Shown: piece after piece, positions 1,133 to 22,157 of the stretch
Position numbering within the stretch: position 1 is the first letter of the stretch
How the letters are laid out: every line of letters starts with the position of its first letter
Virus record (IMG/VR): IMGVR_UViG_3300030382_000719
Location: 1 to 22,634 of that record
Direction: 5' to 3' (one strand)
Source of the DNA: a virus
DNA: 22,634 bases
The notes under the pieces: generated by a model
What the model saw: the letters and a program-made list of their open reading frames with translations, nothing else
Told to the model about the DNA's origin: nothing
Databases searched by the model: none
Made by a program: the position numbers and the translations under genes

Positions 1133-3035
1133 CTATCAATCATTCATCCATCAGTCTCGTTATAGCCGCTGGCTTGAGGAGGAGGGGCGTAGAGAAACCT
1201 GGGAAGAAACAGTGACAAGGCTGCTTGATTTCTATAAAGACTTCCTTAAAAATAATCATGGTTATAGTATGCCAAAGGAAGTGTATACCGATCTATATGT
1301 AGCCATCGTAACCATGCAGGTTATGCCTAGCATGAGAGCTATGATGACGGCTGGCCCTGCACTGGAACGTAATCATATTGCTGCTTACAACTGTAGTTAC
1401 CTCCCTGTAGATAGCCCTCGTTCTTTCGATGAGTGCTTATACATACTCATGCATGGCACTGGTGTAGGCTTCAGCGTTGAGAGACAGTTCATCAATCAAC
1501 TTCCTACTATCCCTGATCAATTTGAATCCAGTGAAACTTGTATCGTCGTACAGGACAGTAAGGAAGGATGGTTCAGATCATTCAAAGAACTGATTAACCT
1601 TCTGTATGCTGGTCAGTTACCTCAATGGGATATGTCAAAGGTCAGACCTCAAGGTGCCAAGCTAAAGACATTCGGTGGTAGAGCAAGTGGGCCTGAACCA
1701 TTGAACGAACTATTTAAATTCACCAGTAATATGTTTAAGAATGCTGAAGGTCGAAAGCTCAATAGCCTGGAGTGTCATGACCTAATGTGTAAGATTGCTG
1801 ATGTAGTTGTGGTTGGTGGTGTACGTAGGTCTGCATTGATTAGCCTATCCAACCTTAGTGATGATCGTATGCGTCATGCTAAGTCAGGTGATTGGTGGAA
1901 CACTGAACCTCAACGATCCTTTGCTAACAACTCTGTCTGTTATACAGATGGTTTAGATACAGGTTCCTTCTTACGTGAGTGGAGTTCATTGTATGATAGT
2001 AAGTCAGGGGAGAGAGGCATCTTCAATCGTAATGCTGCACAAGCACAGGCTGCTAAGTATGGCAGAAGAGAAGCAGACATAGAGTATGGAACTAACCCAT
2101 GTAGTGAGATTATCCTACGGCCCAAGCAGTTCTGTAATCTAAGCGAGGTTGTGGTACGAGCAGAGGATACGCTTACTACACTTTTAAACAAGGTCGAATT
2201 GGCAACCATCCTTGGTACGATCCAATCCACCTTTACAGATTTCAAAGGGCTAGGAAGACAGTGGGCTAAGAATACAGAAGAAGAAAGATTGCTTGGTGTA
2301 TCTCTCACAGGCATATTAGATAATGCAATGTTAGCTAATAAGACTAAGGATAATCTTCCTCAGATTCTTTCTGATCTAAGAGAGTATTGTGTAGATGTCA
2401 ATAGAAAATTTTCTAAACAGTTTAATATAGAATCTTCTGCTGCTATCACCTGTGTTAAACCTAGTGGTACTGTTAGCCAACTGGTTGATGCAGCTTCAGG
2501 TATCCATCCTAGACATTCTGAGTACTATATCAGAACGGTTAGAGCGGATAAGAAAGACCCACTAACTCTGTTCATGACTGATGAAGGCTTTCCTGTAGAG
2601 GATGAGAACAAGAAGCCAGAGACAACGGCTGTATTCTCATTCCCAATTAAAGCACCAAAGGATGCTATAACTAGGCACGATATGTCCGCTGTTGATCATC
2701 TAAATATCTGGAGTATCTATGCTGAACACTGGTGCGAACATAAGCCATCAATAACTGTCAGTGTCAAAGAGAATGAGTGGTTAGAGGTTGGTGCTTTTGT
2801 ATATAAGAATTTCTCTACAATGTCAGGGGTAAGTTTCCTTCCTATGTCAGAACATATATACGAACAAGCACCCTATCAGGATTGCACTAAGCAGGAATAT
2901 GAGAAGCTTTTGAAACGTATGCCAAAGAGTATCGATTGGAAGAAGCTTGGTAAGTATGAAAGAGAAGACAATACTATTTCATCACAGACATTCAATTGCG
3001 TTGGTGATTTTTGTGAAGTGGTTGATCTTGTTTAA
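1122..3035 (+). CDS. nrdJ: Class II (adenosylcobalamin-dependent) ribonucleotide reductase, monomeric RTPR type
   Basis: The 637-aa enzyme reduces ribonucleotides to deoxyribonucleotides using a B12-derived radical. Visible landmarks are: N90-C91 (AAYNCSYLPVD, first redox Cys); NPCSE at 325-329, giving the thiyl-radical Cys C327 and catalytic E329; FCNLSE with C338 as the second redox Cys, the same 11-residue spacing as in the Lactobacillus enzyme; a conserved PSGT segment at 447-450 with HPRHSEYYIRTVR after it; and a C-terminal CX4C pair (C626, C631) for reduction by thioredoxin. It is about 100 residues shorter than Lactobacillus RTPR (about 739 aa), as I recall for phage forms. It overlaps the upstream ORF by 11 bp and the next ATG by 1 bp (TAATG). 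One 60-base line I counted here is about 47% GC, against 25% in a line of the methyltransferase gene. The host must make or import cobalamin. Confidence 0.95.
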   Translation: MITDYQSFIHQSRYSRWLEEEGRRETWEETVTRLLDFYKDFLKNNHGYSMPKEVYTDLYVAIVTMQVMPSMRAMMTAGPALERNHIAAYNCSYLPVDSPRSFDECLYILMHGTGVGFSVERQFINQLPTIPDQFESSETCIVVQDSKEGWFRSFKELINLLYAGQLPQWDMSKVRPQGAKLKTFGGRASGPEPLNELFKFTSNMFKNAEGRKLNSLECHDLMCKIADVVVVGGVRRSALISLSNLSDDRMRHAKSGDWWNTEPQRSFANNSVCYTDGLDTGSFLREWSSLYDSKSGERGIFNRNAAQAQAAKYGRREADIEYGTNPCSEIILRPKQFCNLSEVVVRAEDTLTTLLNKVELATILGTIQSTFTDFKGLGRQWAKNTEEERLLGVSLTGILDNAMLANKTKDNLPQILSDLREYCVDVNRKFSKQFNIESSAAITCVKPSGTVSQLVDAASGIHPRHSEYYIRTVRADKKDPLTLFMTDEGFPVEDENKKPETTAVFSFPIKAPKDAITRHDMSAVDHLNIWSIYAEHWCEHKPSITVSVKENEWLEVGAFVYKNFSTMSGVSFLPMSEHIYEQAPYQDCTKQEYEKLLKRMPKSIDWKKLGKYEREDNTISSQTFNCVGDFCEVVDLV

Positions 3036-3259
3036 TGCCTAGTTATCATGATACTCTACAAGTTAGAGATATGAAAGAAATATTAAAGGATAATGTAAAC
3101 AATCTTGAACATCAATTAACTCATGCTAATAGTAGGGTAGCTTCTCTAACAGAAAAACTAGGAAATATCCTTGCTATACATAGAGACTTAGAGTATCATT
3201 TGCAAGGTATAGAAATTTATCTCTCTGATATTAAAGAGTTAATTGGTAAAGGGGAATGA
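3035..3259 (+). CDS. Small coiled-coil hypothetical protein (74 aa)
   Basis: The start codon shares its A with the TAA of nrdJ (TAATG), a classic reinitiation junction. The 74-residue protein shows heptad-like spacing of leucine, isoleucine and valine through most of its length (MKEILKDNVNNLEHQL, then ASLTEKLGNILAI), which predicts a coiled coil. There are no cysteines and no membrane segment. Such proteins often oligomerise or act as scaffold or inhibitor partners. A partner role for the reductase is possible from position alone but cannot be shown here. Confidence 0.75.
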   Translation: MPSYHDTLQVRDMKEILKDNVNNLEHQLTHANSRVASLTEKLGNILAIHRDLEYHLQGIEIYLSDIKELIGKGE

Positions 3260-3438
3260 TAATGCCTTGGTCAAAAGAATTACAAGATAGTTGGAAAGAA
3301 CAACAGAATGTTAAGAATGATCTAAAGGACTGCACTGTTTGTGGTTGCCCTATCACAAAAAAAGATTATGATAACTATAAGATGTGTCCTTGGTGTTATT
3401 CTGAATCTATCATTGATAATGAAGGAGGAATTATATGA
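3256..3438 (+). CDS. Small zinc-ribbon protein (60 aa)
   Basis: The 60-residue protein carries two knuckles, CTVCGC (about residues 26-31) and CPWC (about 44-47). The CxxC...CxxC pattern, with about 15 residues between pairs, is typical of a treble-clef or zinc-ribbon fold binding one Zn2+. Such mini zinc proteins bind nucleic acids or act as adaptors. The substrate here is unknown. The start overlaps the preceding stop by 4 bp (ATGA). A second in-frame ATG two codons downstream (3262) may be the true initiator. The gene carries the AGGAGG ribosome-binding site of the next ORF inside its own 3' end. Confidence 0.75.
   Translation: MIMPWSKELQDSWKEQQNVKNDLKDCTVCGCPITKKDYDNYKMCPWCYSESIIDNEGGII
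3423..3428 (+). promoter_or_regulatory. Consensus Shine-Dalgarno AGGAGG for the 29-aa ORF
   Basis: A full AGGAGG sits 6 nt upstream of ATG 3435 and 9 nt upstream of a second adjacent ATG (3438), inside the 3' end of the zinc-ribbon gene. It is good evidence that the otherwise easily missed 29-codon ORF is translated. Confidence 0.7.
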
Positions 3439-3524
3439 TGACTTTAAAAAGAATAATACAGAAGGTTAAACAGTGGTTGAATAGAAGCGATGCACCAAAG
3501 TATCTTTCTGGTAAAAATAAATGA
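3435..3524 (+). CDS. Small basic peptide (29 aa)
   Basis: A 29-codon ORF with a near-perfect Shine-Dalgarno and an ATGA overlap with the zinc-ribbon gene. The product is strongly basic (LKRIIQKVKQWLNRS, then YLSGKNK) and could form a short amphipathic, nucleic-acid- or membrane-binding helix. Its stop overlaps the next ORF's ATG (ATGA at 3521). No family is recognised. It is called on translation signals and packing alone. Confidence 0.5.
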   Translation: MMTLKRIIQKVKQWLNRSDAPKYLSGKNK

Positions 3525-3604
3525 CTAGCTGGCATGATTTTATATTAGGTTTCTCATGGGCAATAGCACTATTATGTTTGGTATTTTATATCTATCATGT
3601 CTGA
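3521..3604 (+). CDS. Tiny single-TM peptide (27 aa)
   Basis: It starts inside the stop of the 29-aa ORF (ATGA). The 27 residues consist of a short polar head (TSWHDF) followed by one hydrophobic span (ILGFSWAIALLCLVFYIY). This is the second membrane peptide of this size in the plus operon, the other being at 891-971. The stop overlaps the next ORF by 8 bp. Function unknown. Candidate roles include membrane tethering or lysis timing, but there is no sequence evidence for either. Confidence 0.45.
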   Translation: MTSWHDFILGFSWAIALLCLVFYIYHV

Positions 3605-3770
3605 TGTTCTAAAGAGGCAAAGAGATTTCTGGGATGCTAAGGTTAATCGCTATATACAGATGTTTGAATATGGCAGGGATACAGAAGAACAATTTACTGC
3701 TAACATGATACGCATGGGATTTGAGGTTAAGAATATTAATATAGCATTGGAAGAATATTATGGAAGTTAA
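3597..3770 (+). CDS. Small hypothetical protein upstream of thyX (57 aa)
   Basis: A 57-residue ORF overlapping the preceding TM peptide by 8 bp and thyX by 11 bp. It appears helical and amphipathic, with many charged and aromatic residues (RQRDFWDAKVNRYIQMFEYGRD, split by helix-type periodicity), and ends in EEYYGS. No cysteines or membrane segment are present. Position and overlap imply co-translation with thyX. The family is unrecognised. Confidence 0.6.
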   Translation: MSDVLKRQRDFWDAKVNRYIQMFEYGRDTEEQFTANMIRMGFEVKNINIALEEYYGS

Positions 3771-4422
3771 GTATACAGATCATATGGGTAATGATTTATC
3801 AGTTGTAAATGCTGCTCGTGTTTCTTTCGGTAGGAAGTCACATGAAAAAGGGTATGATCAAATTGTAATTGATGGTCATTATAAAACCTGTCCTCATGTT
3901 AGCACCAAAGATCGTAACCTTATTCAGTATCTAGCTGAACATGATCATTGGACACCCTTCGCCCATACTTCTATTACCTTCTACATCGAAGCACCTATCT
4001 TTGTAGCTAGGCAATTAGGCAAGCATCAAGTTGGATTAGTATGGAATGAAATAAGTAGACGGTACACTCATGGTACACCAAAACTTTATTACCCTGATGA
4101 GTGGAGATTAAAAGCTGAGAACAAAAAGCAAGGAAGTTCTGATGAGACTATAGAGTATGCTATTCAACCTGCTTATGTCTTTGCTTTACAATGTTATCAG
4201 AATATGATAGAGTTAGGTATTGCACCTGAACAAGCTCGTATTGTATTGCCACAATCTGCATACACTTCATGGTATTGGACAGGAAGTTTATATGCATTCA
4301 GTAGAGTATGTAGATTAAGGATACAAGATGATGCACAAAAGGAAACACGTATCTTAGCGAAAGAGATTTCTAGTAGGTGTGAGCAGTTATTTCCTGTAAG
4401 CTGGGGGGTGTTATCAGAATGA
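3760..4422 (+). CDS. thyX: FAD-dependent thymidylate synthase ThyX (flavin type)
   Basis: The 220-aa enzyme makes dTMP from dUMP using methylene-tetrahydrofolate, FAD and NADPH. The N-terminal VNAARVSF, the HDHWTPFAHTSITF block (about residues 61-74) and the signature region R84-Q-L-G-K-H-Q then NEISRRY at 96-102 are visible. The C-terminal part has ARIVLPQ (R160) and a WTGSLYAF...R segment followed by DDAQKETR, all typical of ThyX. The signature differs from the bacterial RHRxxSxNExSxRY: KHQ replaces RHR and there is one extra residue before NE. I recall similar variants from marine podophages, so the enzyme is probably active. It sits beside nrdJ in one operon for dNTP supply. Its stop overlaps the next gene (ATGA). 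Confidence 0.93.
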   Translation: MEVKYTDHMGNDLSVVNAARVSFGRKSHEKGYDQIVIDGHYKTCPHVSTKDRNLIQYLAEHDHWTPFAHTSITFYIEAPIFVARQLGKHQVGLVWNEISRRYTHGTPKLYYPDEWRLKAENKKQGSSDETIEYAIQPAYVFALQCYQNMIELGIAPEQARIVLPQSAYTSWYWTGSLYAFSRVCRLRIQDDAQKETRILAKEISSRCEQLFPVSWGVLSE

Positions 4423-4631
4423 AGACAATTAAACAGTGGGTACTGTTACATGATGAGCTTCCCAGAATAGGGTCAGGCTTTAGGCATGTTAATGTTTCAA
4501 TAGGAAAGAAGTGGGCGCATATACAATCTATTGCTACTAAGGTAAGACAACGTATAAAGATAGGGAGATGGGATGAGATTGAAAGGTCTATGAAAAAATA
4601 CTTAGAAAGAAATATAAATAAAAATGTCTGA
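4419..4631 (+). CDS. Basic hypothetical protein (70 aa)
   Basis: It begins in an ATGA overlap with thyX and ends 8 bp inside the homing endonuclease gene. The 70 residues are rich in lysine and arginine (SIATKVRQRIKIGRW and a MKKYLERNINKNV tail), with a short N-terminal segment that could be a beta hairpin (KQWVLLHDELP). A nucleic-acid-binding role is plausible from charge only. No family recognised. It may have been next to the 70-aa ORF at 5348 before the endonuclease gene arrived. Confidence 0.65.
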   Translation: MKTIKQWVLLHDELPRIGSGFRHVNVSIGKKWAHIQSIATKVRQRIKIGRWDEIERSMKKYLERNINKNV

Positions 4632-5358
4632 AGCTTTTGTATATTTATGGTATGATGCAGGATGGAAGCAAACTGGTGGGCCAAGGTATTATATCGGCAA
4701 GCACAAAGGAACATTGGACAGTGGGTATGTATGTTCTTCTAAATATATGAAGCCTGAATGGGGAAAGAGAGGATGTAAAAAGGTAGGATGTAGACATCTA
4801 TTCGGAGAGGAAGGACATCATGGAGATTTCCATAGGCGTGTGCTTGCTTATGGAACTGAACAAGAGATGATAGACTTTGAGATTAAATTATTAGAAACAA
4901 GAAAAGATTATTTTGGAAGTAGGTATTATAATAGGGTGGTAATGTGGACGCCTTGTAACTCTGGTGAAAATAACCCACAGTATAAACATGGTTTGACTAA
5001 TACTTCTGAATATAAGAGAAGCAAACAAAAACGATATCGTGAAAAGAATAGAGAAAAGGAATTGTTAAGAAAGAAACAATATAGAGAACAGAATAGGAAA
5101 AAGTTAGCGTTAAAACAGAAACAATATTGTGAACAGAATAGGGAAAAGGTAGCGTTAAGACATAAACGATATAGAGAACAGAATAGGGAAAAGTTAGTGT
5201 TATATAGGAAACAATATTATGAACAGAATAGAGAAAAGATAGCGTTACGAAGTAGACAATATTATGAACAGAATAGAAAAAAGATATTGTTAAGACAGAA
5301 ACAATGGAGTGAAAGAAAGAAACTAGAAATATTGGAAAGTATTATAAGTGAAAGATAA
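4624..5358 (+). CDS. GIY-YIG family homing endonuclease with tandem basic repeats
   Basis: The 244-aa protein opens with a GIY-YIG-type nuclease core. FVYLWYD (residues 5-11) stands for the GIY strand, and RYYIGKHKG (21-29) for the YIG strand and following turn. A G-x-x-x-S block (YVCSS) follows, then a Cys/His-rich region (CKKVGCRHLFGEEGHH) and an acidic helix EIKLLETRKDYFG with a probable metal-binding Glu. Residues from about 137 form six near-identical 15-residue repeats with consensus QYxEQNREKxALRxK, long basic helices likely to grip DNA. The gene is AT-rich and lies free-standing immediately beyond thyX, overlapping both neighbours slightly. Phage nucleotide-metabolism genes are common homing targets. 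It is a selfish element, though a regulatory or exclusion role is possible. Confidence 0.8.
   Translation: MSEAFVYLWYDAGWKQTGGPRYYIGKHKGTLDSGYVCSSKYMKPEWGKRGCKKVGCRHLFGEEGHHGDFHRRVLAYGTEQEMIDFEIKLLETRKDYFGSRYYNRVVMWTPCNSGENNPQYKHGLTNTSEYKRSKQKRYREKNREKELLRKKQYREQNRKKLALKQKQYCEQNREKVALRHKRYREQNREKLVLYRKQYYEQNREKIALRSRQYYEQNRKKILLRQKQWSERKKLEILESIISER
5032..5301 (+). repeat. Six tandem 45-bp repeats (15 aa each) inside the endonuclease gene
   Basis: Counting codons, six consecutive in-frame 45-bp units run from a CGA codon at 5032 to just before the CAATGG at 5302. Each encodes a variant of [RQ]Y-x-E-[QK]-N-R-[EK]-K-x-x-L-x-x-[KR]. The central units share the DNA core gaacagaataggaaaa or gaacagaatagrgaaaag. 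Divergence between units is low, which suggests recent duplication. Copy number may vary between relatives. Confidence 0.9.
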
Positions 5359-5560
5359 GATAACCTTATTCCAGTACACCGTCTACCTCACACCACATAA
5401 TACGGTTGAGGTAGAGTCCTCTATCCTTGAGCAAGAGGATTGGGATATGGCTATGGAAGATTTCGAAGAGTATGCAGAAGCTACTACCGTTTCCAACTTC
5501 CTTGCTTACCTTAAAAAATTAATGGTATCAATTAACAGTGGAGTTACTACTTACTTTTAA
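5348..5560 (+). CDS. Acidic hypothetical protein, last gene of the plus operon (70 aa)
   Basis: It uses a GTG start (5348) overlapping the endonuclease end by 11 bp, with GGAAAG about 10 nt upstream. The 70 residues are acidic in the middle (SILEQEDWDMAMEDFEEYAEA) and end in a short hydrophobic/aromatic C-terminus (NSGVTTYF). The fold may be a small alpha/beta domain. Its TAA overlaps the stop of the opposite-strand 914-aa gene by 4 bp. Base composition is higher in GC than the endonuclease gene, suggesting this is older phage sequence. Family unknown. Confidence 0.65.
   Translation: MKDKITLFQYTVYLTPHNTVEVESSILEQEDWDMAMEDFEEYAEATTVSNFLAYLKKLMVSINSGVTTYF
5383..5439. other. Tandem inverted repeats near the operon convergence
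   Basis: CTACCTCA (5383-5390) pairs perfectly with TGAGGTAG (5407-5414). The stem can be extended by ACC/GGT across one bulged base. A second stem follows, TCCTCT (5417-5422) with AGAGGA (5434-5439). Both lie in the 5' half of the last plus-strand gene and 118-174 bp past the stop of the last minus-strand gene, so they would fold in the 3' trailer of the structural transcript. No T-run follows on either strand, so neither is a canonical intrinsic terminator. Function is uncertain. Confidence 0.4.
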
Positions 5561-8301
5561 TTTATTAGTTCTTTAACACCTTTAGCGAAACTAAAAATTC
5601 TATCTTCCCAATCTTTTCCAAAACGAAACATAACATTTGCTCTAAATCTAGTTGCTAAATCAGGGCTACTAGCATAGTGCAACTTATAATAAGAATCTAT
5701 CATATCTCCTTTGTCACCTTCCATAGCTCCTACTAAAAGCTTGTCCCCTTCTCCTTTAAGTATATTTCCTTTATCATCTCTCAGAGATCGTTCAAACATA
5801 TTTGTTACAAATAAAGCTGTTTGTTGTTCTGGTGTTAATCTACTTGCATCTTTATGTTTTCTAGCATTCTTTACCCATGCAGGTATATCATTAACATCCT
5901 TATAATGTCTTTGAAGTCTGTTTAAAGTCATATCTACATCATTGTCTCCAAACTGATAACCTCCTTTAAAACCATATTTATTTTTTGCATTCCAATTACC
6001 ATCACTTTCTATTTTTAAAACTTCATTTGTGAAATGATCAAAATTTTCTAATGCTTGTTGTCTTTGTTGGGCAGTTACATATCCTTCCTTAATTAGTCTA
6101 TTATAATTTCTATTAAAAATATCCAAAGACAATCCCGTTATATGTTTCATTTGGTTTGTATTAGGTAAAGGTTTTTCTTCTGGAATTGGTGGGGTTGCCA
6201 TTAGCTTACCCCCATCTTGCATTCCTACTACACCACCATTACGCATATCTACTACACCACCTTTAGCAAATGGTACGAAGCTATCTTGTGCTATCTGTGC
6301 ATCTTGTTTTTCCCAATCTCTTTCTAACTGTGCAAGATTTACATATCCTGTTCTCTCTCCAGTTCTTTCGTACTCTCCCTCTTCTTCAGCCGCCAGTGTA
6401 TCAAAATACTTTTGGGTTAATGGAGTAAATCCTGCTGCCTTATTCTCATCTTTTATTTTTTGATTACGTAAAGCATATGCATTCTTTATAAGTTTGTTTT
6501 GTTCTCCTACTGTTTCATCACTAAGATTATAACCGGGAGGCAATATGAACTCTGTTCCAGTTCCTCCTCCTTGCATTTGTTTTGATTGGAAATTTCCCAT
6601 AGGTCCATACTTTTTCCAATAGGCAGCATTTACATCTCTTGCCTTTCCTAATCTTTTTTCATAGTCTGCTTTATGATACTCGGAAAAATTTTTAAACCCT
6701 AGTCCTTGTGCCATTTCTCTGTTCTGTTCTATCTTTCTTTGCATCTCCGCAATTTGTTTAGGAGTTTCAAAATCACTAAGACTAGTCTGTTGGCTTTCAT
6801 CTTTATAATAAGCAGAGTCTATCTCTCCCCCATTCTCCATTAAACTAGCCTGTCCACCACTAGCCATGAGAGAGGCAGCAACTACCGCTGCTCCTACGGT
6901 ACCACCGTTACGCATATCAACTATACCTCCTGCTTTCTTACCAAAGCTGAAGCTTTCTGGATCAAACTCTTTAGCAAAGATAGACTTTATCTTTTTAGGA
7001 TCAAGGAACATATAACTAAATGCTCCATAATCTTCAACAAAATTTGGGTAAGCAAACGCATCATATCCATTGTCTTCTAAAATTTTCCATAATGCTTTGA
7101 ACCAACCATCAATTAAGGAAGGATGTATCTTTTCAGGAATAAACATATTTGATTCTGGGTCTAGTTGTTTTGTATTTCGAAATATATTTTTCATATGGAA
7201 AGTATGTGCTGCTTCCATTAATTGTTTCCATAAAGTAGGAGACATACCTTTTAATGGATCAAATTTAGCTCCTTCCATTCTACTTACTTTTGCTATAAAG
7301 TTATCTAATTTACTTAGCTTTACTTCATTTTTTAAATAAACAAATTTACCATCTTCAGGCCAGAAAATAAAATCACCGTTTTCTTTAACATACTTTTTTA
7401 AATCATCTACTGTTTCTATAGAAGGATCAAGAGTATTTTTAATAATATCTTTATTTTTCTTGAAATCTTTTTCTAAATTATCTTTTCTTAGTATATGTCT
7501 TATAGTTTTTTTAGGATTTCGTTCTACATCTATATTCGATAATTCCTCAAGCCATTTACTAGGTAGTTTAAATCTTCCCATATCAGGAACGATAGCTACA
7601 TTATCTAGCTTTGTTACAAGGGGTAGCATTGCTTGCCCTAGTTGCTCTTCCTTTTGTTTTCTAAGAGTAACACCCATTACTTTCGCTTCAGGTTTTCCTA
7701 ACATTTCATTCTGTTTACTCATAGCAGAAAGAGTACCTAAATGTATTCCTATATCCTTTCCTTCTGATTCTTTTAATAATAGTGGATTAAGATATCCTGT
7801 TCCTTCTCCTTTAGGATCAAATTGAATTTTTTCTCCTGCTCTAGTAAAATGAAAAAGAGGGACAGTATATCCTTGTTCTTGTGCTTTCCTATATGGTGCC
7901 TTCCATACTTCTGGCATCTGATTAATATCAATAGGGTCTGGTATTAATACTTCATCTGCTTCTTCTTTTGATAAACCAAGGTCTTCTACTTGTTGTCTAA
8001 GAGCAGATCGTTGGGGTTGCGAAGGTACAAGCTCATCCATCTCTTCTCTTACAGGAGGAACTACATCCATCTCTGCTATAGGTAATTGATCAACAGGAGT
8101 TTCAACTGGAGTTATAGGTGCTGGTTCTTCTGGTAGTAATCCGTATGAACTTTGTGGTATAGTTGCAAAAGATTCTGCTTCTTCTTCAGGAGTCAACACA
8201 CGCAAGGTAGGCTCATGTTTCATAATAGCTCCAGGCTCAGGACTCATAAGTTTTTGAGCGCCCTTAGTTAGAAGCTTTGCTAGTTGTGCTACTAGTGGCA
8301 T
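5557..8301 (-). CDS. Large virion protein: probable ADP-ribosyltransferase-like domain plus C-terminal lytic transglycosylase/lysozyme-like domain
   Basis: The 914-aa protein is the last gene of the structural operon. Residues 1-140 are Pro/Glu-rich linker. Residues about 145-445 resemble the ART fold of the PolyVal/phage type: PLFHFTRAG (148-156, with H151 and T153), DIGIHLGT (183-190) and a closing GYDAFAYPN...FLDPKKIKSIF block (412-442). Gly-rich hydrophobic patches follow (458-495), with VDMRNGG at 461-467 and again at 684-690. Residues about 718-914 look like a lysozyme/SLT domain: IESDGNW (catalytic candidate E765) then FKGGYQFG (778-785). By analogy with T7 gp16, the lytic domain would open peptidoglycan during DNA entry. 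An ART domain could modify host proteins after ejection. The domain assignments rest on motifs by eye; the lytic call is firmer than the ART call. Confidence 0.72.
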   Translation of the reverse strand: MPLVAQLAKLLTKGAQKLMSPEPGAIMKHEPTLRVLTPEEEAESFATIPQSSYGLLPEEPAPITPVETPVDQLPIAEMDVVPPVREEMDELVPSQPQRSALRQQVEDLGLSKEEADEVLIPDPIDINQMPEVWKAPYRKAQEQGYTVPLFHFTRAGEKIQFDPKGEGTGYLNPLLLKESEGKDIGIHLGTLSAMSKQNEMLGKPEAKVMGVTLRKQKEEQLGQAMLPLVTKLDNVAIVPDMGRFKLPSKWLEELSNIDVERNPKKTIRHILRKDNLEKDFKKNKDIIKNTLDPSIETVDDLKKYVKENGDFIFWPEDGKFVYLKNEVKLSKLDNFIAKVSRMEGAKFDPLKGMSPTLWKQLMEAAHTFHMKNIFRNTKQLDPESNMFIPEKIHPSLIDGWFKALWKILEDNGYDAFAYPNFVEDYGAFSYMFLDPKKIKSIFAKEFDPESFSFGKKAGGIVDMRNGGTVGAAVVAASLMASGGQASLMENGGEIDSAYYKDESQQTSLSDFETPKQIAEMQRKIEQNREMAQGLGFKNFSEYHKADYEKRLGKARDVNAAYWKKYGPMGNFQSKQMQGGGTGTEFILPPGYNLSDETVGEQNKLIKNAYALRNQKIKDENKAAGFTPLTQKYFDTLAAEEEGEYERTGERTGYVNLAQLERDWEKQDAQIAQDSFVPFAKGGVVDMRNGGVVGMQDGGKLMATPPIPEEKPLPNTNQMKHITGLSLDIFNRNYNRLIKEGYVTAQQRQQALENFDHFTNEVLKIESDGNWNAKNKYGFKGGYQFGDNDVDMTLNRLQRHYKDVNDIPAWVKNARKHKDASRLTPEQQTALFVTNMFERSLRDDKGNILKGEGDKLLVGAMEGDKGDMIDSYYKLHYASSPDLATRFRANVMFRFGKDWEDRIFSFAKGVKELIN
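6232..6921 (-). repeat. Duplicated VDMRNGG-type glycine motif within the 914-aa protein
   Basis: The heptapeptide VDMRNGG occurs at residues 461-467 (DNA 6901-6921) and 684-690 (DNA 6232-6252), each preceded by KxGGxV-like residues (AGGI, KGGV) and followed by a Gly/Val patch. A weaker relative (MENGGE) is near residue 488. Similar MxNGG motifs flank linkers in other marine phage virion proteins as I recall them. They may mark domain boundaries or membrane-interacting loops. Confidence 0.6.
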
Positions 8302-8528
8302 TACGATCCCTTAATTAAATAAGAAACAAACCACATTAATCCACTACCAATAAAAGCAAGGACTGTAGCTGCTCCATATACAACTGCTCTATCTTTTTCC
8401 AGTACTCTAATTCTTTCTTCGTTCTTTGTTATAAGACTATCAATTTGATTCTGTTCTCTTATAAGTAAATCCATCTTACCATCTAGTCTTCCTAGAAGAA
8501 GGTATACATCTTGCTTATCATCAGACAT
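8301..8528 (-). CDS. Coiled coil plus C-terminal TM protein (75 aa, holin-accessory/XhlA-like topology)
   Basis: The 75 residues form an N-terminal charged helix with heptads (LLLGRLDGKMDLLIREQNQI, then NEERIRVLEKDR) and then a single hydrophobic span (about 49-70) ending with KGS. This layout (cytoplasmic coiled coil, C-terminal anchor) is shared by XhlA-like haemolysin/holin-accessory proteins and several phage membrane proteins. There is no signal peptide. It overlaps the next gene's start by 1 bp. In the virion block it could also be a small structural or ejection factor. The lysis reading is only a topology-based inference. Confidence 0.68.
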   Translation of the reverse strand: MSDDKQDVYLLLGRLDGKMDLLIREQNQIDSLITKNEERIRVLEKDRAVVYGAATVLAFIGSGLMWFVSYLIKGS

Positions 8529-8749
8529 TATGTTTTCTTCTTATTTGTAAAATGTAAATGAACTTTTTTTAATTCATTAAAAGGAATATTTAATAACTGT
8601 GAACCATATTCCATCTGACTATTAGTTAGTGTATTAAAATTCTTTGTATTATATTTTTCTTTTAAAATTTTATTAACTTTATTAATACGAGAATTACTAG
8701 GATTTTTTATTTGTCCAGTATAGTTCATTATATCTTTATGTTTCCACAT
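8528..8749 (-). CDS. Small basic hypothetical protein (73 aa)
   Basis: The 73 residues are Asn/Lys-rich and basic (KVNKILKEKYNTKNFNTLT, ending in FTNKKKT), without Cys or TM segments. A helix-turn pattern (LTNSQMEYGSQLLNIPFNELKKVH) might be a small helical domain. Both ends overlap neighbours by 1 bp, so it is tightly coupled in the virion operon. Low GC. Family unknown. It is probably a minor virion or assembly protein by position only. Confidence 0.7.
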   Translation of the reverse strand: MWKHKDIMNYTGQIKNPSNSRINKVNKILKEKYNTKNFNTLTNSQMEYGSQLLNIPFNELKKVHLHFTNKKKT

Positions 8750-9234
8750 TACGTTTTCTTACGGACAAACCCGCCTTCGTTTAATGCTCCTAATGATGCA
8801 GTAAAATCAGAGAATACAGGAGGGGAAGTAAAACCAATAGCATCTGTAATAGAAGAAAAGAAACCAGTATTAGCAGGAAGATCGGAAGTAGTTATTCCTG
8901 GTACACCTGTAGGTAATGGAGTAGGAACACCCGCTCCACGAAATGTTTCACCAAATCTTTGGATAGCATCCCCAATAGGATTTCCTATTGGACCTTGTCG
9001 TCCACTTGGTCTTGCAATTCTGGCAGGAGCTACATCTGGGTCTCTTTCTGTTCTTTCTGGTTGTGGTATATTTGTAGATCGAATTTGTAAGTTACTTCTT
9101 CCAGGTCTACGTCTACCAGGTAAAGAAATTTCTTCTGTAAGAGGATCAATAGCACGAGGCCCACTAAGAGTACCATATGCTCTCATCTGAGTACTAGCGT
9201 CAGTATCAGAACTTGCTGCTTTTGTATATGCCAT
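8749..9234 (-). CDS. Proline/arginine-rich hypothetical virion-block protein (161 aa)
   Basis: The 161-aa protein is rich in Pro, Arg, Gly and Thr, with no obvious globular domain in the first 80 residues (LPGRRRPGRSN, RPSGRQGPIGN). A more ordered C-terminal part has ITDAIGFTSPP and ends ALNEGGFVRKKT. It starts 5 bp after the stop of the 1458-aa gene, with a GAGG-type ribosome-binding site inside that gene's end. An antisense ORF of nearly equal length exists on the plus strand, but this strand fits the operon. Probably a disordered minor virion or assembly protein. Confidence 0.68.
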   Translation of the reverse strand: MAYTKAASSDTDASTQMRAYGTLSGPRAIDPLTEEISLPGRRRPGRSNLQIRSTNIPQPERTERDPDVAPARIARPSGRQGPIGNPIGDAIQRFGETFRGAGVPTPLPTGVPGITTSDLPANTGFFSSITDAIGFTSPPVFSDFTASLGALNEGGFVRKKT

Positions 9235-9239
9235 AGTTT

Positions 9240-12200
9240 TTAATCCTCTATATATATATTTTTATTTTCTTGTTGTAATATACTATCTAAGTCTCTCATG
9301 ATCATATCTTCTCCTGGTACCTTTTCATCTCTTAAAGTATTAAGAATTATTCTTAATGCTTTTCCTTGTAGTCTTTTAATAGGATATTCATTATGAAAAA
9401 TATTCTTTATATATTCATTTGAAAAGCTTGCTTTATATTTATCCGGTCCTGCTGCTTCTCCTTTAAAAGAACCTCTAGCAAGATCACTAAGAGTTTCTCC
9501 ATTTAGACCAAGTGTTAATCCATGTCCAAAAATAGTTTTAACTCTTCGTGCAATTTCTTTTTCTTTAGTAAGAAAGTTTTTATATTCTTCTATAAGATTT
9601 TCTCTAAGGTTTGGGTCTTGCCAATTCTGTCTATTATTTATAAATTTATTAAGTTTAAAAGTATTAGCACTCTTTTCTCTATGTGCATCTGATAGTGCAA
9701 AACCAACACGAGAAGGAATATGAACATTCTGTGGTTTTAATCCTGATACTAATCCTAAATAAGTATGCCATTTTGGGTCTACTTCTGTTCCCCATTTAGT
9801 TTTTGTAATACTTGTTGTTAAATCTTCTATGTTTTTAAAAACAGTAGGATACATAGCATTTCTTAATTCTCTATTTATAAGCTCTCCATCAAATTCTTTT
9901 CTTCCTTGAGATGCTTCAATAAATTCGTTAAAAACTTTAGCAAGTGCAGCAGGACCAACAGCAGGAATTATATAAGGGTCCATTGCAACTTTGAAAGATT
10001 CCCATGATGCGTTTATTAATCTTGAATTAAGTACAGCATCAGATTCATTTTCATTAAAGGAATGCATTGCTACTTGAGCAATCCTACTAAGATAAGAGAA
10101 AGGATCAGTATAGCCTAAAGGCATAGCTTTTAATGTACCATCTTTAAGCTTACCCATATAGAAGTAATTTGTACCGAATGCCCATTCAGCCGAAAGGTAT
10201 TTAGATTCTAATGCTTCTCGTTGATCATCTGTAATACCGTTTAATGCAGCAGAGAAACCACCTATTCCTCCTACTGTAATGCCTGAAGCTCCTGCTAAGG
10301 ATGCTGCTCGTATTGATCCTCTTGCTCTCATTGCTGCACTACCAGAACGTAGCTCTCTTGCAGCAAGTCTCCATGAGTTAGTATAGTTACGAGTAACTTC
10401 CATAGGAAATGCAACAAAGTTACCAATGGGATACTGTCTAAAGATACGAGTACTACCTGTTAATTGGCTATATGTAGGTGTAAACATATTAACTTTTTTA
10501 GCAGCGGCCTCTTCAATTAATCTGGAAATACTTTCTCCTTCGTTTAATCTTTTCCTAACATCAAATACACCAAGAGTATCAGCATGTTTAATAAAGGCAT
10601 CTGTATTTTTACCATCACCGAAAGCTCTAAACAACCAACCAAATTCTGATTCAAAAGCAGATATCTTATTTATGTTATCTGACATTTCATATACTTCAGA
10701 GGCTACATCTACAGCTTTAACAAGAGTTCTCTTTCCTTTTCCAGTAAGAGTTTCTTTTCCTTTTCCAGCAAAAAGCTTATTTTCTAAATGATGTAAAGGG
10801 TTAGCATTCTTTATCATTAAATTATAAGCTTCTTTAAAAAGACCTGCTCTCATACCATTATGTACAACACCAAGTTCTATTAAACGTGTAATGCTATCTA
10901 CATCACCATCATTTAACTCACCTCGTTTTTTAAACTTATTAAACATAGGAACAGTTCTACGGAAAATAGAATAAGTGGGACTACCTTCTATATTACTTGT
11001 CGATGCTACTGCTTTTACCCATGCTCGTGTGCTAAAAGGAACAATACCATTATAAGCATTTTGAAGCATACCACCAATAAAGTTTCTCATATGTGTGGTT
11101 GGCGATAGTACTGTCTTTGAAAGATTAAAAGCAAATGTAGAACCAGCCATTACTCTTTGTATTGCTGATTCTCCTAGATCATAAAAGTTAGACATTGCGT
11201 CATAGTATTTTTTATATTCAGGATCAATAAAGATATTATCAAAAGGATTATCCATAAAAGATGCTGGTTCATTATCTAATAATTTTTTTGCTTCATTATT
11301 CCACATTCCATTTAACTGTTCATCGTTAAGTTCAAAGGACCGGGAACCTGCTTTTATAGCTTGCCAATCTTTTCGAGGACTTCCTCTAGTCATGAAAGGT
11401 TTTTGTGTAGAACTTCTTCGTAAGCCAATAGATACAAGATCACGTTTTAATTTATAATCTTCTACAATCTTTTTTGTTTTAAATACAGTACCAGCAAAGA
11501 GTTGTCTTGGATCAGTAATCTCACCAAGTAACATCTTAACATATTTCTCATCTATATCCTCTAATTTTATTTTTGTAGGAGCTACTCCTCCTTTTCCTTT
11601 TAATTTACGAGCAGTACTTGGTACGGCAATACTTACCATAGCTTGAAGAGCAGCATCATCATCATTAATACCATCGAAACTTTTAAAATATTTTATGATT
11701 TCATCATACTCTTTTTGATTTAATCTTTCCCCTAAAGATTTTTTAAGATTATAATCTGGGTCTTCATACATACTATACATTCTATGAAGATATGTTTTTT
11801 CTAATTCTTTCTTTTGTAATGTTTTAAAGAATGTGTTTTCTATTGGATTCCCGGTATCGTCTAGTATTCTTTCTCCTTTAGTATTTAATTTATACTTAGA
11901 GAAAGCACCGCTCTCAATTAAGTCCCTTGATGTTTCTGCTATAAGAGAACGCCATTCATCTACAACTTCTTTTACCTCTGATCCATCTGGTAATAGGCTT
12001 TGTATATCTGCTGCTTTTGCAGCTTTACTATCATGTGTTGTTAAAGCTTTTATAAAAGTATGATGAATAGCTCTTTCGGCTTCATTAAAAGAAGTTCCCT
12101 TTTCTTTTTTCCATGCTTTCTCAAATCTCTTGATAAGAATATCTATCTTCTCACCAGATGCGATTAACATTCTTTCTGCATCTCGCATACGTTCTGCTGT

Positions 12201-13616
12201 TTCTGGACCTAATCCAAAATGAGAAGTAAAATTACGTACTAGAAACCCATGTGCTTTCTTCATTGGGTTCCATTTTCCTACGGGGGTTTCTTTTACTATT
12301 GGTTTTCCTTGAGCATCTAATTCATAGTCTAATGACATCTCTTTTAAATCTACTCTATCTAAAATATCACGCATATCGTCATCACTTTTAAAACGTCTTA
12401 TGGCTATTCCACCATTTTCATTAGTAACAACATTATACTCTATTCCATCTGTATCTTTTAAAGTTACTTGAGTAGTCTCAGGAGCTTCTGGAGAAGCACG
12501 AGATATTGTTCTATTAGAAACAGTAACTTTTATAGATTCTCCATTTGCATTAACCCAATTAAGAGGGTACTCTTGTTCTATACCAGGACTTAAACTTGCT
12601 CCTACATTGTTAGCATATGCATCGTCAATATTTTCTTTAGTAATAATTGTAGGAGTATCTTCAATATCTAATTCACGACTAACCATTTCTTTTTTTAGAT
12701 CATCGGTAGTAGAAGTAGTTCTATCTTTACCAAGAATTTTTGAATAGGAACCATTACTAAAAAATTTAGAAAGAGCTTTAGAACCTGTCCCTAAAGCTCC
12801 ACCAAAGCCAGCCCCTATAACAGCCGTAGTTAAAAGCTCATCATAATTAAAACTTTCTGATTCTCCTGTAACATTATGTCTAACTTCTCGTATACCAGAA
12901 TCAATCTCTAAGTTTTGTTTTTCAATATCATATGTACTGGCCCATCCTGCACCTGATATCATTCCTGTAGTAATAGGACGTTTAGCTACTTCTCGTCCGT
13001 ATGCTCCAAAGATACTTTTACGGAAACCTCTAATTAAAGCATTCTTAGCTGTTTGTCCTCCAACTTTACCTGCTACTCCTCGTGCAAGAAACCCTGCTCC
13101 TCCTGTAAATACTCCAATATAATTTAGAGGGTCTTTTATTAATGCTTCAGAAACATCTAAAAATTGATCTTTAAAAGGACGGCTTCCTTCACCAGTAGCA
13201 TTAGTACGATCATACCTATCAAATAATAAACCAACATCAAACTTATCTTGTTCTGATAAACTATTCTGATTAACAAGAACCTTACCTAAACCAAAGGTTA
13301 AGTTGTTATCTATGTAGGCAAAGTCCGACATAAACGCATCAACAGCTTCTTCATCAGTTCCTGTAAAGTCTTCACCATTTTTACGTTTGTAATATCGTTT
13401 GAAAGAATTTAATAGGACAGTATCTTTATGTAAATTAGAATATTGTAATTCTGATGTTAAAGAAATATTATCGCTGGCCTTTTTAATTTGTTGTTCAGTT
13501 GCATTATTTGCAAACTGATACATTCCTATTCCTGGTATATGACGTAGATGATGAGTATTAGTATCATACTCATAGTCATCAGGATTAACAGAATATGTTG
13601 TAGTTCTTTCTACCAT
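9240..13616 (-). CDS. Giant internal/ejected virion protein (1458 aa)
   Basis: At 1458 residues this is the largest gene here and the central member of the virion block, comparable in size and place to T7 gp16 or other injected core proteins. I see no catalytic signature. The protein is mainly helical and charged, broken by Gly/Ala-rich amphipathic segments that could enter membranes: about 164-190 (YIGVFTGGAGFLARG), 215-226, 262-280 (TTAVIGAGFGGALG), 822-860 (FAFNLSK through QNAYNGIVPF) and 1103-1126. Residues about 320-420 look beta-rich. The stop-start overlap with the upstream gene is 1 bp. Probable role: part of the structure that carries DNA across the host envelope. This is inferred from size, pattern and position, not from a recognised family. 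Confidence 0.8.
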   Translation of the reverse strand: MVERTTTYSVNPDDYEYDTNTHHLRHIPGIGMYQFANNATEQQIKKASDNISLTSELQYSNLHKDTVLLNSFKRYYKRKNGEDFTGTDEEAVDAFMSDFAYIDNNLTFGLGKVLVNQNSLSEQDKFDVGLLFDRYDRTNATGEGSRPFKDQFLDVSEALIKDPLNYIGVFTGGAGFLARGVAGKVGGQTAKNALIRGFRKSIFGAYGREVAKRPITTGMISGAGWASTYDIEKQNLEIDSGIREVRHNVTGESESFNYDELLTTAVIGAGFGGALGTGSKALSKFFSNGSYSKILGKDRTTSTTDDLKKEMVSRELDIEDTPTIITKENIDDAYANNVGASLSPGIEQEYPLNWVNANGESIKVTVSNRTISRASPEAPETTQVTLKDTDGIEYNVVTNENGGIAIRRFKSDDDMRDILDRVDLKEMSLDYELDAQGKPIVKETPVGKWNPMKKAHGFLVRNFTSHFGLGPETAERMRDAERMLIASGEKIDILIKRFEKAWKKEKGTSFNEAERAIHHTFIKALTTHDSKAAKAADIQSLLPDGSEVKEVVDEWRSLIAETSRDLIESGAFSKYKLNTKGERILDDTGNPIENTFFKTLQKKELEKTYLHRMYSMYEDPDYNLKKSLGERLNQKEYDEIIKYFKSFDGINDDDAALQAMVSIAVPSTARKLKGKGGVAPTKIKLEDIDEKYVKMLLGEITDPRQLFAGTVFKTKKIVEDYKLKRDLVSIGLRRSSTQKPFMTRGSPRKDWQAIKAGSRSFELNDEQLNGMWNNEAKKLLDNEPASFMDNPFDNIFIDPEYKKYYDAMSNFYDLGESAIQRVMAGSTFAFNLSKTVLSPTTHMRNFIGGMLQNAYNGIVPFSTRAWVKAVASTSNIEGSPTYSIFRRTVPMFNKFKKRGELNDGDVDSITRLIELGVVHNGMRAGLFKEAYNLMIKNANPLHHLENKLFAGKGKETLTGKGKRTLVKAVDVASEVYEMSDNINKISAFESEFGWLFRAFGDGKNTDAFIKHADTLGVFDVRKRLNEGESISRLIEEAAAKKVNMFTPTYSQLTGSTRIFRQYPIGNFVAFPMEVTRNYTNSWRLAARELRSGSAAMRARGSIRAASLAGASGITVGGIGGFSAALNGITDDQREALESKYLSAEWAFGTNYFYMGKLKDGTLKAMPLGYTDPFSYLSRIAQVAMHSFNENESDAVLNSRLINASWESFKVAMDPYIIPAVGPAALAKVFNEFIEASQGRKEFDGELINRELRNAMYPTVFKNIEDLTTSITKTKWGTEVDPKWHTYLGLVSGLKPQNVHIPSRVGFALSDAHREKSANTFKLNKFINNRQNWQDPNLRENLIEEYKNFLTKEKEIARRVKTIFGHGLTLGLNGETLSDLARGSFKGEAAGPDKYKASFSNEYIKNIFHNEYPIKRLQGKALRIILNTLRDEKVPGEDMIMRDLDSILQQENKNIYIED

Positions 13617-18798: not shown

Positions 18799-18799
18799 A

Positions 18800-18952
18800 T
18801 TAGTTCCTTTTATTAAATAACTCAAACAGTGTCTGCACTTTTTCTTCAAGTACTTTTACACGTACTAATATCTCTGCTCTGAAGGCTATTGCTACTGCTC
18901 CCACTGCAATTACCCCAGATATAATCGGCCATATATCTACTACTTGTTCCAT
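18800..18952 (-). CDS. Small N-terminal TM / C-terminal coiled-coil protein (50 aa)
   Basis: On the minus strand an ATG (18950-18952) opens a 50-codon ORF. It encodes an N-terminal hydrophobic span (IWPIISGVIAVGAVAIAF), a basic turn (RAEILVRVK), a short leucine/glutamate heptad (VLEEKVQTLFELF) and a basic end (NKRN). It begins 1 bp before the stop region of the chaperone-like gene and stops 1 bp before the protease start, with the protease ribosome-binding site in its own last codons. The layout resembles small spanin, holin-antagonist or class II holin-like proteins. Translational coupling with the protease suggests a common envelope task. Confidence 0.7.
   Translation of the reverse strand: MEQVVDIWPIISGVIAVGAVAIAFRAEILVRVKVLEEKVQTLFELFNKRN
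18804..18810 (-). promoter_or_regulatory. Ribosome-binding site AAAGGAA that fixes the protease start
   Basis: AAAGGAA on the minus strand sits 5 nt before the ATG at 18796-18798. It decides for the internal methionine in front of the signal peptide and against a longer reading frame opening at 18849, whose first 17 codons overlap the 50-aa gene. Confidence 0.75.
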
Positions 18953-21809: not shown

Positions 21810-22157
21810 TTATGTTATCTCCATAATTGATAGTGCAATATCTACTGCACCACTTGCTGTAACAGAGAGTGTATCTGTAGTTTCCATTACAATTTTATTA
21901 CCGCCCAAAAGTTCTAATGAACTATTCCCCGGAATAGCGGAAGAAGTAACAAGTTCTACATCTTGGTTAGTTTCATTATTAGCTCCTGCTCTATTAGCAG
22001 TATCTGTTCCAAGAGTAACTGAAGATGTAATAGCACCAGAAGTCGTATTACCTACTATTAATCCTAGTATAATTGTAGTAGTACTACCTGCAACAGTATA
22101 AATTACATCCGCTGATGTCACTCCTGCCTTAGTTATAACTTTAAATGTATTTGCCAT
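21810..22157 (-). CDS. Small beta-rich virion structural protein (115 aa)
   Basis: The 115-aa protein starts MANTFKVITKAGV and runs through TTTIILGLIVGNTTSGAIT, with SSLELLGGNKIVMETTD and SGAVDIALSIMEIT at the end. This is a pattern I recall for a small structural protein common in marine cyanophages and pelagiphages (MANTFK...IPAGSSLEVIGGNKIVLE...SVMEI). It is a beta sandwich with no charged helix. It lies between two fibre genes and directly abuts the next gene's start, supporting a tail-fibre or neck/baseplate-associated role. Start supported by AGGAAAGG upstream in the 15-bp gap. Confidence 0.8.
   Translation of the reverse strand: MANTFKVITKAGVTSADVIYTVAGSTTTIILGLIVGNTTSGAITSSVTLGTDTANRAGANNETNQDVELVTSSAIPGNSSLELLGGNKIVMETTDTLSVTASGAVDIALSIMEIT

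Follow-up and report, generated by a model that had tools for sequence, protein, structure and literature searches.

The window analysed here is the whole 22,634-nucleotide stretch of the viral record, which derives from a virus of bacteria, probably a marine, short-tailed phage. A preliminary description had placed a 914-aa protein at 5557-8301 and named no strand; the open reading frame is real, it lies on the minus strand and reads from 8301 down to 5557, and the plus-strand frame over the same interval contains many stops. The genes that matter for its interpretation are the following.

5557..8301, minus strand: P0001, the 914-aa protein, final gene of a minus-strand operon, its ATG sharing bases with the stop of the holin-like gene
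8301..8528, minus strand: 75-aa holin-like gene directly upstream of P0001, with a charged N-terminal part and one C-terminal hydrophobic stretch
9240..13616, minus strand: 1458-aa ejection/virion-type protein encoded in the same operon, with relatives in phages Y3, 023Pt_psg01 and HTVC027P
21810..22157, minus strand: 115-aa relative of HTVC203P gp43, a 'putative virion structural protein'; its own PHROG is a family of unknown function

The overlap of the P0001 start codon with the upstream stop is TAATG, with GGGA just upstream of the ATG, and the layout of the holin-like gene resembles that of HTVC027P gp86. Over the stretch that it shares with the 1458-aa protein, the 023Pt_psg01 relative matches phrog_22602 'virion structural protein'; it is the only one of the two relatives scanned (023Pt and HTVC027P) to match a virion PHROG. 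By homology, two operon neighbours thus place P0001 among virion genes. Searches of viral contigs with the 1458-aa protein and with a 439-aa protein of the window returned no relatives, and Rfam and tRNA scans of the window found nothing.

Within P0001, the motifs named in the preliminary description all lie at the residues given there (FHFTRAG 150, GIHLGT 185, GYDAF 412, FLDPKKIKSIF 432, ESDGNW 765 and GGYQFG 780), and the protein is laid out as follows.

7912..8301, minus strand: leader and Pro/Glu-rich linker, residues 1-130, without a family match
6952..7884, minus strand: divergent ART-PolyVal-like domain, residues 140-450 (held-out profile, alignments, fold comparison)
7849..7851, minus strand: His151 (FHFT), strand-1 His of the predicted ART active site, invariant in the ART alignment
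7741..7743, minus strand: His187 (GIHLGT), strand-2 position, Tyr in the published family (alignment, motif tally)
7102..7539, minus strand: mostly helical insertion in the ART-like domain, residues ~255-400 (alignment gaps; helices in a low-confidence model)
7060..7062, minus strand: Asp414 (GYDAF), strand-5 Asp, invariant in the ART alignment
7033..7035, minus strand: Glu423 (YPNFVE), Glu of YxNxxE, invariant in the ART alignment (also motif tally)
6202..6936, minus strand: middle linker with Gly-Gly motifs, residues 456-700 (phage-record search)
6901..6930, minus strand: GGIVDMRNGG, copy 1, residues 458-467
6232..6261, minus strand: GGVVDMRNGG, copy 2, residues 681-690
5617..6099, minus strand: lysozyme/lytic-transglycosylase-fold domain, residues 735-895 (profile and fold comparison)
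6007..6009, minus strand: Glu765 (ESDGNW), predicted catalytic, invariant in the lytic alignment and followed by GGYQF at 780-784

P0001 has no clear transmembrane stretch, its best 19-residue hydropathy mean being 1.36 in a crude test. The middle linker (query residues 451-705) had zero matches in phage records, and the exact DNA pattern of the Gly motifs occurred in 0 stretches of the viral contigs.

The proposal that residues 140-450 hold an ART-type domain was borne out by a held-out profile of eight ART sequences (six of them H-type) that had not been retrieved with P0001. This profile scored 34.3 bits on P0001, compared with 8.6 bits for the best of 2,000 shuffles, none of which scored as high, and 1.9 bits for the top other protein of the window. 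The set was taken from two record lists (3 of 15 and 4 of 10 records) and is one step removed, since the records from which it started, pT24 and Tunturi_5, were themselves reached via P0001. The six H-type members alone gave 31.8 bits, against 10.0 for the best shuffle and 4.0 for the best other window protein. The score is concentrated in residues 404-446, which contribute 26.0 of the 34.3 bits, and the N-terminal half accounts for 5.5 bits. A seven-member profile of Tyr/Trp/other-type ARTs reached 0.6 bits on P0001 (262 of 2,000 shuffles as high) and a nine-sequence, Tyr-dominated profile 7.3 bits (1 of 2,000 as high). The failure of these profiles and the success of the His-type ones mean that the homology is visible only via the His-type subgroup. 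In pairwise comparisons of residues 395-455 with the eight held-out sequences, 9 of 500 shuffles reached the score of the Massilia sequence, and 12 of 500 that of the Bosea sequence.

When residues 347-492 were compared by tblastn with 50,697 phage records, 4 records from 3 phages matched, and two of these phages contributed PF18760 members matched within that very domain, Tunturi_5 gp225 (E 4e-3) and pT24 gp157 (E 0.5). BLAST matches obtained from P0001 in the ART region are confined to residues 379-457, and the region of residues 153-346 alone (204 aa) had zero phage matches even at E 10. The Pfam model PF18760 matched neither P0001, nor the window at E of 10 or below, nor the isolated domain, and the ART alignment profile had zero matches among PDB sequences. 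All 7 rows of the ART alignment other than P0001 match PF18760, and His151, His187, Asp414 and Glu423 are invariant across P0001 and these seven. His151 and Asp414 align with the strand-1 His and strand-5 Asp of ART-PolyVal, but the strand-2 Tyr of the published configuration is absent, its place being taken by His187. This Tyr is not defining for the Pfam family, since the seven other rows carry His there and yet match PF18760. YxNxxE accompanies H[FL]G in 15 of 15 rows and appears in 0 of 16 rows that lack H[FL]G (one cut row excluded). On these sequence comparisons, we place residues 140-450 with ART-PolyVal (PF18760; HYD2-type ARTs) as a divergent relative rather than a filed member, in a subgroup with His for Tyr in strand 2 together with YxNxxE. 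The helical insertion, of ~150 aa, exceeds anything at that place in the aligned ART relatives.

The predicted structure of the ART-like domain is of low confidence (pLDDT 51, pTM 0.46). Two of the fold matches listed for this poor model span the domain, 9k3a_B (Z 5.5, 124 aa, rmsd 4.3), a chain of the cyanophage A4 pre-ejectosome, and 6kyf (Z 3.6, 118 aa, rmsd 4.3), an anti-CRISPR; the ART fold match is partly circular, because the model was built on ART rows. Matches in BFVD to the same low-confidence model include ART-PolyVal proteins; the two best of those that carry a name have E values of 8e-3 and 3e-2. TetR and other helical folds were also returned, on or around the insertion, and were set aside as common helical arrangements.

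The lytic domain proposed around E765 was borne out as well. A profile of five rows that exclude P0001, found via P0001 directly or in one further step, gave 67.1 bits on residues 735-895, whereas the highest-scoring of 2,000 shuffles reached 8.8. Glu765, Gly780, Gln783 and Phe784 are invariant in the lytic alignment of four sequences, as a Glu followed by G-x-x-Q-F. For the structural model (pLDDT 62, pTM 0.64), VIA fold matches 1-7 are all of lysozyme/LT type or homologues (Z 6.1 to 4.1, the following match 2.7), and the fold matches include MltC, phiKZ gp144 and the phi6 lysin. Foldseek returned nothing for this model at E of 0.001 or below in PDB or BFVD, no curated Pfam family matched the domain above its cut-off (Transglycosylas PF06737 gave 14.8 bits, cut-off 27), and the lytic alignment profile found two chance-level rows only among PDB sequences. 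By profile and predicted fold, residues 735-895 are a lysozyme/lytic-transglycosylase-fold domain, with Glu765 as its predicted catalytic residue.

The relatives of this domain come from pelagiphages, HTVC203P gp47 and a 2329-aa protein of EXVC032P Baldr, and more weakly from Vibrio phage 1.204.O gp11 (E 4), which matches phrog_3883 'internal virion protein'. HTVC203P gp47 had no PHROG match itself and lies between the internal virion proteins B-like and D. The lytic family of P0001 is thus found in or beside internal virion proteins, but, unlike in P0001, an ART-like domain was not found in these three proteins.

The complete fusion was not seen elsewhere within the searches made. Relatives of whole P0001 were found neither by tblastn against phages nor by six peptide patterns in viral contigs, and phmmer against PDB returned one chance-level row. 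A lytic domain was detected by Pfam in 0 of 13 ART-bearing proteins, a count limited by the fact that the lytic domain of P0001 also escapes Pfam; in this set Y3 ORF31 and A-4L gp27 are below the PF18760 cut-off, and five entries (L012, L013, L015, L021 and L055) are truncated where the locus ends. Comparison of whole P0001 by blastp with 771 ORFs of at least 80 aa from loci L002-L025 gave matches to the ART end or to the lytic end and none to both, and the ART profile, which does not pick up Tyr-type domains like the one in Y3, found none in the ORFs of the six loci that carry the lytic domain (L005, L006, L008, L010, L011 and L024). Two BFVD entries, 'Cell wall hydrolase, SleB' (probability 0.28) and 'LT_GEWL' (probability 0.10), weakly match the ART model, so other ART-lytic fusions may exist.

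Although unseen elsewhere in these searches, the fusion is no new principle, and P0001 seems to be a further representative of an established class of injected phage proteins. Iyer et al. 2017 described phage polypeptides with several unrelated enzyme domains as polyvalent proteins, with ART as their commonest predicted protein-modifying domain, with lysozyme domains proposed to breach peptidoglycan, and with injection alongside the DNA proposed on the model of T4 Alt (PMC5512222). The idea of ART and lysozyme domains in injected polyvalent proteins was therefore published in 2017 and is less new than the preliminary description supposed. P0001 resembles these proteins, by homology, in joining two unrelated domains in one phage polypeptide. 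It differs from them in its length of 914 aa, in having no Pfam match to an LPD, a metallopeptidase or an RNA polymerase domain, in its divergent His-type ART with an insertion, and in a lytic domain of the HTVC203P gp47 family. With the PF18760 members Tunturi_5 gp225 and pT24 gp157 it shares HxT, HFG/HLG, D, YxNxxE and P-x-x-(I/V)KS in the same order, but it falls below the Pfam cut-off, carries the helical insertion and has HLGT instead of HFGT. The top fold match of its ART model, 9k3a chain B, is the A4 pre-ejectosome protein gp27 of Anabaena phage A-4L. This solved cyanophage protein seems to hold an ART-like domain as well, which PF18760 matches weakly around residues 1424-1478 (13.1 bits, cut-off 31.2). 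Unlike P0001, gp27 has 1717 aa and a Tyr-type GTYFS, and the M23 domain that cuts the wall belongs to its neighbour, gp28. T7 gp16 carries a transglycosylase domain within an ejected core protein (PMC8954989), whereas the lytic domain of P0001 is C-terminal and accompanied by no clear membrane segment. Orthology with T7 gp16 was rejected, as there was no HMM match and hhalign gave a probability of 0.2%, though with the ES..QF motif in register.

We give a probability of roughly 0.6 to the reading that P0001 is a two-enzyme, virion-associated protein of the ejection type, a small 'polyvalent' protein that would deliver a host-modifying ART. We infer packaging and injection from its relatives and from gene order, and catalysis by the domains and their target are likewise putative. 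P0001 would be made from the same operon as the large virion-type protein, be packaged, and exit the capsid along with the genome. The C-terminal lytic domain (Glu765) would then cut peptidoglycan, and the ART-like domain (His151, His187, Asp414, Glu423) would arrive in the cytoplasm and may ADP-ribosylate a host macromolecule as infection starts. The two-domain interpretation offered earlier is partly supported: P0001 joins an ART-type domain, related to ART-PolyVal, and a lytic domain in one polypeptide, within an operon that has virion-type genes. T4 Alt is an ART that its phage delivers together with the DNA (PMC9503650, PMC5512222), and the parallel drawn with it is sound only as an analogy: Alt belongs to the R-S-E active-site clade (PMC5512222) and P0001 has His/His/Asp, so an Alt-type ART was rejected.

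The best surviving alternative, though an unlikely one, is that P0001 is a lysis enzyme, its lytic domain an endolysin paired with the holin-like gene and its ART-like part a passenger or late-acting. P0001 directly follows that gene, a usual endolysin position, and in 023Pt_psg01, where the large virion protein and a small gene of similar kind come first, an M15 peptidase occupies the corresponding place. Moreover, no second endolysin was recognised among the larger window proteins scanned (10 by PHROGs and 10 by Pfam), but one may lie outside the window, which may be a fragment. The lytic relatives in or beside internal-virion-type proteins also argue against a lysis enzyme, as does HTVC203P, which carries its own, separate M15 peptidase gene besides gp47, and an endolysin of 914 aa that included long linkers and an ART domain would be very unusual. 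Slightly less likely again is an ART-like domain that is no longer an enzyme and keeps its fold to serve the ejection machinery in a structural or binding role, with the insertion over the former NAD site. Its strong divergence, below the Pfam cut-off, its large helical insertion and the similarly weak-scoring domain in the A-4L gp27 pre-ejectosome chain would suit such a role, but all four subgroup motif residues are kept, which is unexpected for a decayed site. That the likeness of residues 140-450 to ARTs is chance, or a short C-terminal motif in a domain of another kind, is very improbable: the concentration of the score in residues 404-446 and the failure of Tyr/Trp-type profiles would fit it, but no shuffle equals the held-out score, and the N-terminal HxT and HxGT stand at the right places, though outside the span of the BLAST matches.

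An extension of the two-enzyme reading, unlikely as it stands, makes P0001 a single-polypeptide 'cut and modify' protein from a catalytically distinct His-His-Asp/Glu ART subgroup (HFG/HLG with YxNxxE), in which the insertion would gate the NAD site until passage through the portal, so that the enzyme would be active only after delivery. If the two-enzyme reading itself is true, wall opening and host modification are tied to one molecule, and the two would therefore enter the cell in the same number of copies, right as infection begins. Changes that the phage makes before any gene is read would become testable with one purified protein. Such ARTs could also hide below the Pfam threshold in ejection-type proteins, so that short-tailed phages may have more of them than has been counted; according to a survey from 2022, only 3% of siphoviruses and podoviruses have ARTs (PMC9503650).

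The two kinds of domain also occur side by side in separate proteins. In Caulobacter phage Jess A an ART-PolyVal protein is encoded directly beside an SLT protein (gp039c / gp040c), and, unlike that of P0001, its ART is Tyr-type. As a side observation, PF18760 gave a single match across 299 genomes of one phylum.

The 914-aa protein P0001 is a genuine two-domain phage protein, combining an ART-like domain (residues 140-450) with a C-terminal lytic domain (residues 735-895), and the likeliest reading of it is as an ejection protein, a small one of the polyvalent kind. Its ORF runs from 8301 to 5557 on the minus strand, and the motifs named in the preliminary description were all found at their residues. 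The gene is the final one in a minus-strand run, and its ATG overlaps the preceding stop codon. The genes of the window discussed here are:

4624-5358, plus strand: gene in which a 45-base repeat occurs about six times (5029-5305) and encodes a basic EQNREK repeat tail; the start of the product resembles GIY-YIG by motif, and there is no Pfam match
5557-8301, minus strand: P0001
8301-8528, minus strand: holin-like gene
9240-13616, minus strand: 1458-aa protein
17962-18849, minus strand: trypsin-like serine protease (PF13365, 1.2e-14) of the run that ends with P0001; a hydrophobic stretch lies at its N-terminus
21810-22157: 115-aa gene

Plus-strand genes converging on P0001 include those for a class II ribonucleotide reductase and ThyX. 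ThyX has 1,794 phage matches, and the best 10 all come from pelagiphages and roseophages; 4 of these 10 are annotated or unannotated records of the Roseobacter phage SIO1 type. This points to a marine alphaproteobacterium as the probable host. The 22,634-base record is possibly a fragment, since it is listed as linear.

The ART-like domain is placed by no Pfam, PHROG or NCBIfam model, and the evidence for it comes from its relatives. Searching 50,697 phage records by tblastn with residues 347-492 gave four records from three phages (Tunturi_5 gp225, pT24 in two records and one unannotated Enterobacter phage); the Tunturi_5 and pT24 proteins are members of PF18760 (ART-PolyVal), the matches of P0001 fall within that domain, and viral contigs gave five further relatives. 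PF18760 matches all seven sequences aligned with P0001, and a profile of these seven, all chosen through P0001, gives it 52.3 bits (best of 2,000 shuffles, 8.2). Because of that choice, a held-out profile was built from eight sequences, none retrieved with P0001: pT24 gp156, which PF18760 picked out when run on the pT24 record, and seven hits of a tblastn search that used the Tunturi_5 gp225 domain as query. P0001 scored 34.3 bits with this profile, while the best of 2,000 shuffles reached 8.6 and the best other window protein 1.9. The test is not fully blind but at one remove, since pT24 and Tunturi_5 had come up through P0001. The ADP-ribosyltransferase assignment proposed earlier from pattern holds as profile homology, but not as a match to the Pfam HMM.

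With only the six held-out members that carry His in strand 2 (His-type), P0001 still scored 31.8 bits (best shuffle, 10.0; best other window protein, 4.0). A profile of seven Tyr, Trp or other-type ARTs gave 0.6 bits, equalled or exceeded by 262 of 2,000 shuffles, and a Tyr-dominated profile of nine sequences 7.3 bits, equalled or exceeded by 1 of 2,000; judged by these scores, the domain is kin of one ART subgroup only. Phage ART-PolyVal domains fall into two types: across 32 ART sequences, with one set aside as cut at its N-terminus (L023), YxNxxE stands near the end in all 15 whose strand 2 has H[FL]G (P0001 counted; six of these had been retrieved without it) and in 0 of the 16 others. 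The two motifs together (7033-7743 in P0001) may mark a catalytic subgroup. The alignment gives His151, His187 and Asp414 as the counterparts of the His, Tyr and Asp of the ART-PolyVal configuration described in PMC5512222, with Glu423 as a fourth invariant, so that strand 2 carries His187 in P0001 whereas the described configuration has Tyr. The tandem pT24 genes gp156 and gp157 (2025-3150 of the pT24 locus), labelled 'P domain-containing', are both His-type ART-PolyVal.

Structure prediction for the ART part gave a poor model (pLDDT 51, pTM 0.46), with parts of its last strands at 71-76 pLDDT and a dip to 55 between them. Two of the 50 VIA rows listed span the domain. One is 9k3a chain B (Z 5.5, 124 aa, rmsd 4.3), a protein of the pre-ejectosome of cyanophage A4; the other is the anti-CRISPR 6kyf, taken to be the ADP-ribosyltransferase AcrIF11 (Z 3.6, 118 aa, rmsd 4.3). 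Most of the remaining rows are helical ones that fall on or near the helical insertion within the domain. BFVD gave a single row at E <= 0.001, without a name; among the named rows that follow it, Dickeya phage JA11 contributes an ART-PolyVal-like protein (E 8e-3) and pT24 a protein of 176 aa (E 3e-2), gp157 judging by its length. Since the model rests on ART rows, the fold match is supporting rather than independent.

The claimed C-terminal lytic domain was borne out. With the last 214 aa as query, matches were obtained to gp47 of pelagiphage HTVC203P (E 8e-7) and to EXVC032P Baldr (E 1e-4), the match to Vibrio phage 1.204.O being at chance level there (E 4). P0001 scores 67.1 bits with a profile made from five of its relatives alone, four retrieved through it and one through Baldr (best of 2,000 shuffles, 8.8), and Glu765, Ser766, Gly780, Gln783 and Phe784 are invariant in the four-sequence alignment. 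AlphaFold gave a model of moderate quality (pLDDT 62, pTM 0.64), whose VIA rows are headed by MltC (Z 6.1, 121 aa, rmsd 4.2), phiKZ gp144 (Z 5.9, 123 aa, rmsd 4.1) and the phi6 lysin (Z 5.8, 128 aa, rmsd 4.2), followed by RpfB and Pae87 entries, with the first row of another kind at Z 2.7; plain Foldseek gave no match at E <= 0.001 in PDB or BFVD. There is a good probability of a lysozyme/lytic-transglycosylase fold, and lytic activity is predicted. The middle linker is flanked by repeated Gly-Gly motifs, GGIVDMRNGG (6901-6930) and GGVVDMRNGG (6232-6261).

Gene context and the relatives of the lytic domain suggest, with a probability of roughly 0.7, that P0001 is delivered with the virion. The 1458-aa operon protein has relatives in Pseudoalteromonas phage Y3, phage 023Pt_psg01 and HTVC027P; across the same stretch the 023Pt_psg01 relative belongs to phrog_22602, a virion structural protein, and the HTVC027P relative, annotated as a putative structural protein, has no PHROG match. 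The 115-aa gene matches HTVC203P gp43, a putative virion structural protein. A role in lysis is unlikely: P0001 lies directly 3' of the holin-like gene and the corresponding place in 023Pt_psg01 is taken by an M15 peptidase, but relatives of the lytic domain occur within or adjoining internal-virion-type proteins, and HTVC203P carries its M15 peptidase gene separately.

Iyer et al. 2017 (PMC5512222) already proposed that polyvalent proteins bearing ART and lysozyme domains are injected, with T4 Alt as a comparison, and the figures of that paper may include ART-lysozyme fusions. Head-packaged phage ARTs are argued for in PMC9503650, and swapping of lytic domains between ejection proteins is described in PMC8954989. 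No ART-lytic fusion was found in titles and abstract openings on phage ARTs with ejection proteins, lytic transglycosylases or polyvalent proteins, nor among 771 ORFs compared with P0001, and a Pfam scan, which misses the lytic domain of P0001 itself, found a lytic domain in 0 of 13 ART-bearing proteins. Within this already proposed class, P0001 stands out by the fusion and by the unusual subgroup of its ART.

ART-like domains were also seen in other phage proteins. The 9k3a chain is gp27 of Anabaena phage A-4L (20116-25269 of its locus), a solved pre-ejectosome protein that appears to carry an ART-like domain, with a weak PF18760 match around residues 1424-1478 (13.1 bits, cut-off 31.2) and the motifs LYHGT and GTYFS at that site. 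Y3 ORF31 (9110-12193 of the Y3 locus) shares a long stretch with the 1458-aa virion-type protein and so has the look of an ejection protein whose N-terminal part is an ART; in PMC11654794 the Y3 ART is counted among auxiliary metabolic genes, under the name 'ADP-ribosyltransferase'. In Caulobacter phage Jess A (1953-10338 of its locus), an SLT protein adjoins a 2039-aa ART-PolyVal/LPD22 protein; both are annotated 'lysis protein' and are probably ejection proteins.
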